Positions 10,149-33,809 of a stretch of 34,309 bases of DNA are shown piece by piece (the stretch's first letter is position 1; every line of letters starts with the position of its first letter). This stretch comes from Selenomonas bovis DSM 23594. GTDB lineage: Bacteria > Bacillota > Negativicutes > Selenomonadales > Selenomonadaceae. The position numbers were made by a program, and so were the translations under genes. The DNA is taken from assembly GCF_000381005.1 (NCBI RefSeq), contig NZ_KB908402.1:1-34309 (forward strand). The letters run 5' to 3'. The notes under the pieces are model-generated. The model did not search any database. It had not been told where the DNA came from and saw only the letters and a list, made by a program, of their open reading frames with translations.

Positions 10149-10216
10149 ACGCACCTCGAACGCACTTTTACGCACCTAAACGCACATGTGTATAATTTTA
10201 TTTTAATGCACATGTG
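10149..10216. promoter_or_regulatory. Helically phased ACGCAC array followed by two CACATGTG palindromes
   Basis: ACGCAC occurs at 10149, 10160, 10170 and 10180, a spacing of 11, 10 and 10 bp, so all copies face the same side of the helix. The palindrome CACATGTG follows at 10183-10190 and again at 10209-10216, with an AT-rich stretch between (TATAATTTTATTTTAA). No gene in this gap explains the order. It could be an operator, an iteron-like protein-binding array or the relic of an integration or replication site; the bound protein is unknown. Confidence 0.45.
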
Positions 10217-10247
10217 TGTTAAAATGCGTAAAAAGGAGTAAAAATGA

Positions 10248-10350
10248 AAAAGAGGCTGCCGCACGCAAGCTTTTTCTACAATATCTAGGAGATGAGTAAT
10301 ATCCTTCATCTATATATTGTAGGAAAATCGCTTCGTGCGGCAGTCTCTTG
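10248..10350 (-). terminator. Large hairpin, probable terminator of the prepilin peptidase gene
   Basis: The outer arms AGAGGCTGCCGCACG and CGTGCGGCAGTCTCT pair almost fully, and inner parts (CTACAATAT/ATATTGTAG) pair again, giving a ~100-nt imperfect hairpin. Read on the minus strand it is followed by CTTTTTCATTTTT, as expected for intrinsic termination downstream of 10442-11077. On the plus strand the left arm also carries a 14-codon frame (10244-10288, MKKRLPHASFFYNI) with AGGAG 5 nt before its ATG; this may be chance. Confidence 0.6.
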
Positions 10351-10441
10351 CTTTGTTTCTCACAGGATCGGCGCTTGTTGCCGCGGCGGTGAAAGGCTGT
10401 GCGAGCATACGCCGCGGGTAGCCTCATTGCTCTGCTCTCTC

Positions 10442-11499: not shown

Positions 11500-11662
11500 T
11501 AGGAACCACTGATGAAATAAGGTGCTCCGGATTTACGTGGATGCGCTGTACTCTCTAGGAGATAAACCGCAGGCGTAGCCGAAGCTACGCTGAGGTTTGT
11601 CGACGACGAGAGGACAGTGCAGACGCGTGAAGACGGAGTGCCGAATTCATCAGTGATTCCTA
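11500..11662 (+). repeat. Complete foldback (MITE-like) element, 163 bp
   Basis: Terminal inverted repeats TAGGAACCACTGATGAA and TTCATCAGTGATTCCTA match at 16 of 17 positions. The whole element is one imperfect palindrome: the arms pair along most of their length around a centre of GCGTAGCCGAAGCTACGC. It has no coding capacity. Related copies are at 2424-2506, 21634-21686, 28099-28265 (inverted) and, in minimal form, 34083-34119. Its right end is 46 bp before the cpaB start. Confidence 0.85.
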
Positions 11663-11708
11663 AAACATGAACGCGACGCATCATGCTTCGTTCATAGGAG
11701 GAGTAGCC

Positions 11709-30937: not shown

Positions 30938-32212
30938 TTATCGCGTCTTGCCGCCGGCGCTTGGCGTCGGGGCGCTGTCGCTTGCGGCAGCTGTGTCGCT
31001 TCGCTGCTGGCTCGTCTGCGTGTCCTCGCTGCGCGCGTCGGTGGCGGCGCTGCTGCTGCCCGCCGTCGTGCGGTCGCGTGAGGAGGTGCTGTTCTTCGTC
31101 GTTTCCTGTGAGCGCTTGATCTCGCTCTTGCCGCTCTTTTGCGCGCTGCTCTTGACGTTGCCGATGCTGTGGTCGGAGGCGGGAACTTCGGTGGCGTTCG
31201 CAGGGATGGAGCGCTCGTATTCCCGTGCGGCCTGCTCGAGCCTGTGGCGCGCGGATGGGGAGAGCTGGATGCCGAGTGTCTCGGCGAGCGTCGTGCGGAG
31301 TTTCTCCACATCGGGGATCCAGTAGCTGACGCCGGAGATGTAGAGCGGACGGCCGGGGACCATCTCGGTCTTGAGGCCGTTCTTCTGCGCCTCCTTGAGC
31401 GTGCCCGCGAACTCGAGCAGCTGGCGGAACGAGAGGTCGGTCTTGACAGAGCCGATGACCTCTTTGATGACCGTCGGCAGCTTCGGGATGATGGAGGGCG
31501 AGGTGACTTTGTCCATGCAGGCTTTCATGAATTTCTGCTGGCGCTTGATGCGGCCGATGTCGCCCTCCTCGTCGCGGTAGCGCACGTAGGTAACGGCGGT
31601 CTTGCCGTTCATATGCTGCATGCCGGGCTTCAGGTCGATGACGAGGCCGCCGTCGTCGTCCCAGGGGTCCTCGTAGTACATGCGTTTCTCGACGTCGATG
31701 TCGATGCCGCCGATGGCGTCGATGATTTTCTGGAACGCGTGCGTGTCGATGACTACGTAGTGGTCGATGTTGACGCCGAGGAAGTCCTCGACGGTGCGCT
31801 GGGCGAGCTTCTCGCCGCCGAGGATGCCGCTCTTGGCGCTGCCGTAGGCGTAGGCCGCGTTGATCTTGTCCCAGCTGTGGCCGGGGATCTTGACGCGCGT
31901 GTCACGCGGCACGGAGAGCAGGGAGGCCTGGTTCCTCTTCGGGTCGACAGCAGCGATCATGAGCGTGTCGCTGCGCCCGACATCGTCCTCGCGCGCATCG
32001 ACGCCCATGATCATGATGGTCGATTTGTCCTTCGCCGTGAGCAGGCCCTCCTCGACGGCGTCGCCCGCCGTCTTGTCGAGCAGCGACGAGGAGGCGAACA
32101 TGGCGCCGGCGACGGCCGCGCCGACGAAGCAGAGGAGGACGAGCAGCCAGGTCCAGAACCGTGATTTCTTTTTCTTCCGCGTGCGCCGCGGCGGGATGGT
32201 GGAGTTTGGCAA
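30938..32212 (-). CDS. LytR-CpsA-Psr (LCP) family protein
   Basis: A 424-residue membrane-anchored enzyme of the family that attaches polymers to the cell wall. A basic head (RRTRKKKK) and one membrane segment (about 20-42) are followed by the LCP domain (about 65-235): IMIMGVDARE, GRSDTLMIAAVD, LLSVPRDTRV with the conserved Arg, DKINAAYAYG, TAVTYVRYRD and GRIKRQQKFM. The C-terminal ~90 residues are Ser/Thr/Lys/Gln-rich and low complexity. The promoter at 32258-32286 lies downstream of the longest in-frame start (32341), so that start cannot be used. TTG 32212, with AAGAAGG 7 nt upstream, is the best start. Single-gene unit. Confidence 0.85.
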   Translation of the reverse strand: MPNSTIPPRRTRKKKKSRFWTWLLVLLCFVGAAVAGAMFASSSLLDKTAGDAVEEGLLTAKDKSTIMIMGVDAREDDVGRSDTLMIAAVDPKRNQASLLSVPRDTRVKIPGHSWDKINAAYAYGSAKSGILGGEKLAQRTVEDFLGVNIDHYVVIDTHAFQKIIDAIGGIDIDVEKRMYYEDPWDDDGGLVIDLKPGMQHMNGKTAVTYVRYRDEEGDIGRIKRQQKFMKACMDKVTSPSIIPKLPTVIKEVIGSVKTDLSFRQLLEFAGTLKEAQKNGLKTEMVPGRPLYISGVSYWIPDVEKLRTTLAETLGIQLSPSARHRLEQAAREYERSIPANATEVPASDHSIGNVKSSAQKSGKSEIKRSQETTKNSTSSRDRTTAGSSSAATDARSEDTQTSQQRSDTAAASDSAPTPSAGGKTR

Positions 32213-32257: not shown

Positions 32258-32286
32258 ATTATAATGAGGTTTCAAATTTTGTGCAA
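32258..32286 (-). promoter_or_regulatory. Promoter of the LCP gene
   Basis: On the minus strand TTGCAC (32281-32286), a 17-bp spacer and TATAAT (32258-32263). Its position fixes the LCP start downstream of about 32250. Confidence 0.75.
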
Positions 32287-32333: not shown

Positions 32334-32574
32334 TTTTCCACAATTCCATGGGGATGATTTGTGGAGAAAAAACGCTAAATATAGTCTGACGGTGGATTTC
32401 TTTAGCTAAATATGGAGTTATCCCCTGTTTTATCCACATTATCCACAGGACGCGTCGGATTTTTCTATGCACATTGTACACATTGGCGGGATGTCCGGAA
32501 TGATTGGGCGGATGGCAGTTCGTATCCAGGGAGGGGGAGAAGTTATCCACAACTGTGGATGAGTGTGTGGATAA
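32334..32574. promoter_or_regulatory. DnaA-box cluster
   Basis: Four perfect TTATCCACA boxes: 32430-32438 and 32439-32447 in direct tandem with no gap, 32543-32551, and 32566-32574 in reverse. Three more have one mismatch: 32334-32342, 32360-32368 (reverse) and 32554-32562 (reverse). AT-rich stretches lie among and beside them. The cluster sits between two divergent genes (LCP and MgtC). It is either a replication origin or a DnaA-titrating/regulatory site; dnaA and dnaN are not in the window. Confidence 0.7.
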
Positions 32575-32658
32575 GCAAATTTTCTCTTGTGCAAAGAGGT
32601 GTTTGCTGACGTTAGTTGTAGTATAATAGGGACATGAGATATGAGAGGAGGCGGATGG

Positions 32659-33336
32659 ATGACGGAGATCAGCGAGGGCGAGCTCTTGCTGCGCCTGGTG
32701 CTCGCCTGCGTGCTCGGCGGCATCATCGGCTATGAGCGGCAGTCGCGCCATAAGTCGGCGGGGCTGCGCACGAATATGCTCGTGTGTCTCGGCTCCTGCC
32801 TCGTGATGGTGCTCTCGCAGGAGATCTACCTGCGCGTCGAGGGGCATACGAACGCGGATCCGGCGCGCCTCGCGGCGCAGGTGGTCTCAGGCATCGGCTT
32901 CCTCGGCGCCGGGGCGATCATGAAGGAGGGCCTGACGGTCACGGGGCTCACGACGGCGGCGTGTCTCTGGGTCGTCGCGGGCGTGGGGCTCGCGGTCGGC
33001 GCGGGCCTGTATGTGGGAGCCTTGCTCACGACGGGGCTCGTGTTCGCGACGCTCGGCGTGCTCTCGCGCCTCGACGCGTGGGTGGCGCAGGAGCGCCATC
33101 TCTATCTCGTGATCCATGCGTGTGATGCGCCGGGGCAGCTCAGCCATATCAGCGCCTGCCTCGAGGATCTCGATCTCTCGGTGCGCGATCTCAAGGTGCA
33201 TGAGGCGCCGCCGCAGGATGGGGTGCGGATGCTGTCGATCGAGCTTGATGTCTATAACCGCCAGGCGGTGAGGAGTGCTGTCATCGCGGAGGCTGTGCAG
33301 CAGCTGCGCGGCGTGCGCGGCGTGGAGATTGGTTGA
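32659..33336 (+). CDS. MgtC/SapB family membrane protein
   Basis: A 225-residue protein. The N-terminal ~140 residues hold about four to five membrane helices with the family motifs LGGIIGYERQSRHKSAGLRTNMLV and GIGFLGAGAIMKEG. A soluble C-terminal domain (about 145-225) has an ACT-like strand pattern. MgtC relatives are linked to magnesium limitation and membrane energetics; the role here is not shown by the sequence. The start is ATG 32659 with AGGAGG 7 nt upstream; ATG 32641 overlaps the site. A TATAAT at 32622-32627 is the likely -10, with a weak -35 (GTGTTT). It starts ~85 bp after the last DnaA box. Confidence 0.85.
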   Translation: MTEISEGELLLRLVLACVLGGIIGYERQSRHKSAGLRTNMLVCLGSCLVMVLSQEIYLRVEGHTNADPARLAAQVVSGIGFLGAGAIMKEGLTVTGLTTAACLWVVAGVGLAVGAGLYVGALLTTGLVFATLGVLSRLDAWVAQERHLYLVIHACDAPGQLSHISACLEDLDLSVRDLKVHEAPPQDGVRMLSIELDVYNRQAVRSAVIAEAVQQLRGVRGVEIG

Positions 33337-33386
33337 GGAGCCGCTGGGAGTGCAGCGTGCTGTCTAGGATTCATGGAGGTATGGGT

Positions 33387-33809
33387 ATGTTGAATGAAGC
33401 GATTATTGACACGATGGTGCGGCAGGCGATGGATATCACGCGCAATGCGTATGTGCGGCATGAGTCGTCGCTCGCGGTCGGCGCCTGTGTGCTGGCGTCG
33501 GACGGGACGCTCTACAGCGGCTGCAATCTCGAGAACCGCATGCCGCAGCTCTGCGTGACGGCGGAGCAGGTGGCGATGCATATCGCGCTCGCGGACGGCA
33601 AGCGCGAGTTCGACGGTATCGCCGTCATCGCGGATACGGAGGAGCCGTATGTGCCGAGCGGCCTCTCGCTCCAGCTGCTCGCGGAGTTCGATGTACCGGA
33701 GGTCGTCATGGCGAACATGAACGGGCTCACGGACGTAAAGCCACTCGAGGCGCTGCTGCCGTACTATGTGAGGATGAAAGCGAATAAGAGGTTCACGTTC
33801 GGGAAGTGA
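33387..33809 (+). CDS. Cytidine deaminase homologue without zinc ligands (probable pseudoenzyme)
   Basis: A 140-residue protein that aligns along its length with small homotetrameric cytidine deaminases: VGACVLASDGTLYSGCNLEN matches the start of the core, and EALLPY the C-terminal motif. The catalytic zinc set is gone: the CAE motif is TAEQ (Thr58 for Cys, Glu60 kept, Gln61 for Arg), and PCGxC is PSGLS (Ser91 and Ser94 for both Cys). The fold should persist, but zinc-dependent deamination is unlikely; a regulatory or binding role is inference. The start is ATG 33387 with GGAGG 7 nt upstream; ATG 33381 is only 1 nt from it. It follows mgtC by 50 bp and may be co-transcribed. Confidence 0.8.
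   Translation: MLNEAIIDTMVRQAMDITRNAYVRHESSLAVGACVLASDGTLYSGCNLENRMPQLCVTAEQVAMHIALADGKREFDGIAVIADTEEPYVPSGLSLQLLAEFDVPEVVMANMNGLTDVKPLEALLPYYVRMKANKRFTFGK

Follow-up and report, generated by a model that had tools for sequence, protein, structure and literature searches.

A DnaA-box array carrying candidate NrdR sites is conserved across Selenomonadaceae and may be a satellite of the replication origin

How bacteria adjust the initiation of replication to the DNA precursors available is, to our knowledge, an open question. In Escherichia coli one known link depends on DnaA and NrdR, both acting at the nrdAB promoter. In a rumen Selenomonas, S. bovis DSM 23594, a cluster of DnaA boxes lies between two unrelated, divergent genes, one for an LCP (LytR-CpsA-Psr) protein and the other mgtC, raising the question of what such a cluster does apart from dnaA. 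The first-pass annotation offered three options: part of an off-site origin, a control locus resembling datA or the DnaA-box clusters (DBCs) of Bacillus subtilis, or a DnaA-regulated promoter for mgtC and the LCP gene. We analysed the cluster in the window, that is, the whole stretch of 34,309 nucleotides, which is the entire contig C24 of a 75-contig, 2.69-Mb assembly, and compared it with its counterparts across the Selenomonadaceae.

The exact DnaA box TTATCCACA occurs four times in 241 b (32334–32574), and counting one-mismatch boxes brings the number to seven (Table 1), confirming the four perfect and three near-perfect boxes first annotated there. These numbers were never approached in 5,000 dinucleotide-preserving shuffles of the segment, which gave at most one exact box and two with up to one mismatch. 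The window as a whole holds five exact boxes, against 0.13 expected. Of the 34 places listed across the 2.69-Mb assembly, none has exact boxes packed as densely as the array; two of the 34 duplicate two others because the end of contig C49 and the start of contig C30 are the same DNA. Two more DnaA-box groups in this genome, at C16:31227-31479 (three exact boxes) and C21:19884-20080 (two exact boxes), lack the NrdR-type pair described below. The +/-/- three-box element at the right end of the array is found with identical spacing upstream of dnaA, at C30:11267-11298. Elsewhere in the window, a dispersed repeat of about 100–150 b was recognized by eye at 11510-11670, and again at L037:1-330 and L039:7690-8060.

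Table 1 Features of the array and its flanks in the window; DnaA boxes at −96 and −12 are numbered from the first tandem box.
Feature	Position	Strand	Basis
LCP (LytR-CpsA-Psr) gene, PF03816, near-side neighbour	30938..32212	-	Pfam; start codon chosen by us
Possible LCP promoter TGCACA-16-TATAAT, 10 of 12, outside the conserved array	32258..32285	-	consensus match only
DnaA box at −96, TTTTCCACA, one mismatch	32334..32342	+	mean column identity 0.86
One-mismatch DnaA box TTCTCCACA, varies between relatives	32360..32368	-	box search, alignment
NrdR-type box 1, core CTAAATATAG at 32375-32384	32372..32387	.	column identity 0.86 (spacers: 0.51, 0.44)
NrdR-type box 2, core CTAAATATGG at 32406-32415, offset from box 1 by 31 b	32403..32418	.	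column identity 0.79
Degenerate DnaA box at −12, TTATCCCCT, abuts NrdR-type box 2	32418..32426	+	column identity 0.89
Exact DnaA box TTATCCACA, tandem pair no. 1	32430..32438	+	tandem-pair column identity 0.96
Exact DnaA box TTATCCACA, tandem pair no. 2	32439..32447	+	tandem-pair column identity 0.96
Exact DnaA box I TTATCCACA, inverted three-box element	32543..32551	+	
DnaA box II TCATCCACA, one mismatch, three-box element	32554..32562	-	
Exact DnaA box III TTATCCACA, three-box element	32566..32574	-	
mgtC, PF02308, far-side neighbour	32641..33336	+	Pfam
Cytidine-deaminase-like gene after mgtC	33333..33809	+	ORF, Pfam

The first-pass annotation had proposed looking for the boxes in related genomes, and they recur across the Selenomonadaceae. 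Searching with the intergenic stretch as DNA gave matches in 19 of 41 genomes, our own included, with all seven of its genus among them; some of these matches sit at dnaA rather than at the array. An LCP profile yielded 80 named loci, in which the nearest named LCP relative came from a MAG of Selenomonas bovis (best segment 85%, with our own genome possibly left out of the comparison). Up to 900 b upstream of the LCP gene, these loci carry 146 exact boxes in 70.7 kb, compared with 65 in 1,240 kb elsewhere, a 39-fold difference. The box cluster is present in 45 of the 80 loci, 44 with the tandem pair; alignments exclude the 35 loci without a cluster and L230, which has dense boxes and no tandem pair, and one alignment (A2) comprises 41 of 45 rows, the window among them.

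The layout of the clusters varies little. In 36 of 45 clusters a box with at most one mismatch falls between −94 and −97, and boxes at −12, 0 and +9 are found in most, the −12 box of relatives being mostly TTATCCAC plus one variable base. The inverted element follows about 65–180 b further on (mostly 100–140), and in 40 of 43 sequences a distance of 23 b separates its outer boxes; box II is missing from its place in S. artemidis and similar loci (L176, L183, L192, L194, L203, L209 and L212). Column identity is 0.79–0.96 in the boxes and 0.44–0.51 in the spacers. At E ≤ 0.01, a sequence-only model of the left half of the array (118 positions) matched 100 of the 121 genomes of the family, representing 28 of 30 genera, and at E < 1e-9 it matched 77 (hand count of the listing); the 21 family genomes with no match include both g8 genomes and those of genus g13. 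A class-wide search with this profile outside the family gave nothing below E = 1e-9, the best match being 3.8e-7 and many covering little beyond tandem boxes. Judged from these alignments, the array is a nearly fixed design, kept in position and spacing across the Selenomonadaceae while its spacers and flanking genes change.

Two groups of genomes stood out in this survey. In genus g13, 12 of 13 genomes (G018, G061, G078, G097, G103, G108, G113, G118, G123, G128, G132 and G136, the last counted because the positive list does not include it) had no PF08299 match and no PF00308 match at E ≤ 1e-30, at 88–100% completeness and in 40–210 contigs; a weak PF00308 match in G018 reads as RarA. The same 12 had neither tandem boxes nor an array match, and this genus may have lost DnaA. 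In G089, also of genus g13, DnaA is present and the array profile found no match. Four g6 genomes (G055, G074, G086 and G094) carry tandem DnaA boxes about 8–9 kb from dnaA with no strong array match; three of the four have two such pairs in inverted arrangement, and G055 has a single one.

Between the −95 and −12 DnaA boxes lie two further conserved motifs, an NrdR-type pair that the first reading, right about the boxes, had overlooked. We scored them against CWATATMTWG, which we take to be the core consensus of NrdR boxes; on the E. coli nrdH and nrdD promoters this core gave a pair at a 31-b offset in both. The arrangement that marks an NrdR site, two palindromic boxes offset by about 31–32 b, was found in 43 of 45 arrays with at most five mismatches in 20. 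It lies at −54 to −56 with an offset of 30–32 b and has 0–3 mismatches in 30 arrays, four in 11 and five in two; the pair is free of mismatches in two Anaerovibrio loci (L225 and L229) and L165, and the window pair has three. Mononucleotide shuffles equalled the array pair in about 0.3% of cases, and background pairs with up to three mismatches numbered 11 in 1.29 Mb. Among nine arrays left out of the model, eight had the pair with up to four mismatches; the ninth (G046) was mis-anchored, its pair being visible by eye. A long hairpin between convergent genes in the window (10210-10360), unrelated to the array, holds a perfect-looking NrdR-like pair at 10279, so matches to the pair call for caution. 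A tblastn search with E. coli NrdR gave no match in 301 fetched pieces, which are pieces rather than whole genomes. In the excerpted description, NrdR binds paired 16-b palindromes, usually with a 15–16-b spacer, and the solved complex has sharp kinks at each box (PMC12051234).

In several genomes, secondary matches of the left-half profile proved to be nrdDG promoter sequence, where the same two motifs occur together with a DnaA box. From 14 fetched stretches we used eight nrdDG promoters, leaving five others unused and excluding L302; nrdD and nrdG were identified by Pfam in L295 and by reading elsewhere. All eight have the NrdR-type pair at a 31–32-b offset, and in all eight the pair overlaps a TTGAC[TG]-17/18-TATAAT promoter matching at 11 of 12 positions. 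These promoters (L291–L298), which come from two genera, thus combine an NrdR-type pair over a near-perfect promoter with an exact DnaA box, a layout that suggests DnaA control of anaerobic ribonucleotide reductase. In L295, the last part of NrdD (PF13597 positions 532–562) forms a separate 98-aa gene before nrdG (1625-1921).

No gene is a constant neighbour of the array. Across 44 loci, the near side has a CYTH match in 27 and none in 17, and the far side has mgtC and the deaminase in 24, mgtC in eight, the deaminase in nine and neither in three; contig ends may hide a gene in any of these counts. A set of nine arrays has CYTH, deaminase, mgtC, LCP (G042) or transporter genes alongside, named by reading except for the CYTH of L277 and L193. 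The LCP gene had initially seemed a constant partner because the loci had been collected through it, a view dropped when the profile search found arrays with no LCP gene beside them; CYTH was dropped in the same role given the 17 of 44 loci without a match. By eye against L280 and L287, the deaminase-like protein encoded at 33333-33809 seems to be without the usual zinc-binding and catalytic residues (PSGLS for PCGAC, TAEQ for CAER).

Such intergenic placement, in every locus read, could indicate a divergent promoter regulated by DnaA and NrdR, serving either the near-side gene (LCP or CYTH) or the far-side mgtC/cytidine-deaminase operon. Consistent with this, 41 of 44 loci have mgtC, the deaminase or both on the far side, the deaminase is a nucleotide-salvage gene and a plausible NrdR target, an NrdR pair with a DnaA box is also the layout of the family nrdDG promoters, and the predicted LCP promoter lies about 50 b from the first box. 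Promoter-like sites near the window array number three against 0.8 expected. However, none above shuffle level overlaps the NrdR-type pair: on either strand, promoter matches over the array pair occur only at shuffle frequency, and the pair does not overlap a ribonucleotide reductase promoter. The presumed targets also change while the array does not. The near-side gene is CYTH in 27 of 44 loci, 12 of 44 have no mgtC match, and in Mitsuokella a fructose kinase/PTS pair replaces mgtC (by reading). The distance to the LCP gene ranges from 225 to 1,061 b while the internal spacing is nearly fixed, and in six of 40 genomes with array and dnaA on one contig the best LCP gene is not next to the array; in five of these (LCP gene on another contig in G049, G053, G073 and G085, and 5 kb off in G046) the array is still 4–29 kb from dnaA. 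We therefore regard regulation of the flanking genes, including the promoter for mgtC and LCP first suggested, as an unlikely main role of the array.

The position relative to dnaA is more regular. In our own genome dnaA is on contig C30, followed by dnaN and then recF and gyrB (reading of translations), which bears out the earlier remark that dnaA and dnaN do not adjoin the cluster; with the array on C24, the distance across contigs is not measurable. In the 40 of the 77 E < 1e-9 genomes that have the array and dnaA on one contig, a sample biased towards short distances, we compiled positions by hand and left G112, which spans a contig end, unmeasured. Of the 39 measured pairs, 38 have array and dnaA 4–57 kb apart, all 38 within 60 kb, and the median distance is 23.7 kb; the exception is G041, at 420 kb. 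It is downstream of dnaA in 34 of the 40 genomes.

An array so near the origin, with tandem exact boxes as in oriC and an inverted three-box element shared with the region upstream of dnaA, might itself be an off-site replication origin or the second half of oriC. GC skew speaks against this where it can be read. In G022, G023, G044, G099 and the single-contig G119 the cumulative minimum is about 1–3 kb away from dnaA, and in G020 the distance is about 7 kb, these being local minima within fetched stretches of 40–80 kb rather than whole genomes, and in the same six relatives the array is 13–34 kb from dnaA. In G088 (single contig) the skew switches at 528–548 kb, with the array at 566 kb and dnaA at 623 kb, so the switch is at neither and nearer the array. 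Skew in G014, G051 and G072 was inspected and decides nothing. Within our own genus (own contigs and G006) no switch was seen at dnaA or at the array, which could be read in favour of an origin away from dnaA and leaves the skew there undecided; the place of the origin in this genus thus rests on the trio element. On our own C30 (L037) the skew is negative on both sides of dnaA, and in G006 (L136) dnaA lies within a short stretch of negative skew, as if a segment had been inverted.

DnaA-trios also point to the dnaA-dnaN gap. Under the BUS-type oriC rule, as given in the source excerpt, tandem DnaA boxes are followed by at least three DnaA-trios within 16 b (PMC8287927). Our own dnaA-dnaN gap has tandem boxes and, 13 b later, six A-centred trios (TAC GAC TAC GAC AAC TAT), whereas the longest run in our own array is two. 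Trio runs of the TAC/GAC type were read at dnaA-dnaN in 15 of 19 genomes, our own and 14 of 18 others, and were not found there in the remaining four (G119, which has the sharpest skew, G020, G072 and G014); the survey took in 21 loci, two of which (L289 and L290) gave no dnaA-dnaN gap. A TAC/TAT/GAC run of three occurs in one of 45 arrays. The looser NAN rule gives runs of three or more in 38 of 45 arrays, up to nine, and is therefore useless for separating arrays from origins. For genera with readable skew an off-site origin is disfavoured; the array itself is probably not oriC, and overall we consider an origin function very unlikely.

What remains of the initial options is the control locus, which is also the one we favour: the array would be a satellite of the replication origin, an origin-proximal DnaA-box cluster of the DBC or datA kind that also carries candidate NrdR sites. 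We give this reading, drawn from comparison of sequences, a probability of roughly 0.6. DnaA would bind the array cooperatively and be held there. Lying near the origin, the array would be copied soon after initiation, and each initiation would thus double the DnaA sink and lower the amount of free (or ATP-bound) DnaA, delaying the next initiation in the manner reported for B. subtilis DBCs and E. coli datA. With less assurance, dATP-loaded NrdR may bind the box pair and kink the DNA between the DnaA boxes, and such a kink could alter the amount of DnaA held by the array and tie initiation to the dNTP pool. By analogy, we tentatively envisage a datA-like control site with the dNTP sensor NrdR in the place of IHF, in which high dATP might lead NrdR to bind and bend the array and alter its DnaA occupancy, letting the nucleotide pool gate initiation directly in the Selenomonadaceae.

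An element with both kinds of site and no evident promoter, close to oriC, would make a direct link between initiation and precursor supply testable with one deletion. Our literature search for 'NrdR box' together with 'DnaA box' found only a Lactobacillus reuteri pan-genome, and one for Selenomonas with 'replication origin' and 'DnaA box' found none. Among the matches listed for Selenomonadaceae and DnaA, none was by its title on initiation control in the family, and among those listed for NrdR with DnaA or oriC, none was by its title on such a site.

The inverted three-box element invites comparison with the E. coli sites DARS1 and DARS2, in which, as described, box I is opposed to boxes II and III with spacing alike in both, and which lie between oriC and the terminus (PMC5742627). 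If the array were of this kind it would reactivate DnaA instead of holding it. Three boxes in the order and orientation +, −, − with 12 b between II and III are common to both. However, DARS1 and DARS2 of E. coli have I(+), II(−) and III(−) at 0/14/26 (the assignment of boxes I–III being ours), whereas the array has 0/11/23, a box I–II offset of 11 b rather than 14 b. In addition, the array is beside the origin, box II is not in place in S. artemidis and similar loci, and the equal element upstream of dnaA is where autoregulation could explain it. We consider a DARS-like role highly improbable.

NrdR-regulated ribonucleotide reductase promoters (nrdDG and nrdHIEF) share with the array a pair of CWATATMTWG cores, for which E. 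coli nrdH and nrdD have the same 31-b offset, and the nrdDG promoters of the family combine such a pair at 31–32 b with a DnaA box, as the array does. E. coli nrdA is also bound by DnaA (PMC12176259). The array differs from these promoters in that none of the neighbours read is a ribonucleotide reductase gene and that its promoter matches do not exceed shuffle level.

IHF bends DNA, and datA lies hundreds of kilobases from the origin of E. coli. Excerpts on datA describe DnaA boxes at fixed spacing around an IHF site and the importance of its copy number right after initiation (PMC4585315, PMC5742627). The array likewise has fixed-spacing DnaA boxes around a candidate inner protein site, a likeness for which we claim no sequence relation; it differs in that its inner site resembles NrdR boxes and that it lies tens of kilobases from the origin.

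The oriC-proximal DBCs of B. subtilis were reportedly described by Okumura et al. in 2012. Like the array, they are clusters of DnaA boxes outside oriC; as far as the excerpted sources go, deletion of all six causes early initiation, and NrdR sites are not mentioned in connection with any DBC (PMC13220808, PMC5295017). Extracts on DBCs and datA describe DnaA held on DNA or inactivated after duplication of the cluster (PMC13220808, PMC5295017, PMC5742627, PMC4585315), and another, on E. coli, relates the density of boxes near the origin to titration (PMC12371093). The array has several DnaA boxes close together outside oriC, and it is origin-proximal in 38 of 39 measured same-contig relatives. 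Unlike the DBCs, the Selenomonadaceae have one dominant cluster of nearly fixed geometry throughout the family, with an NrdR-type pair inside. DnaA-box clusters as such are already known; what appears to be new here is the NrdR-type pair, together with a layout fixed throughout the family.
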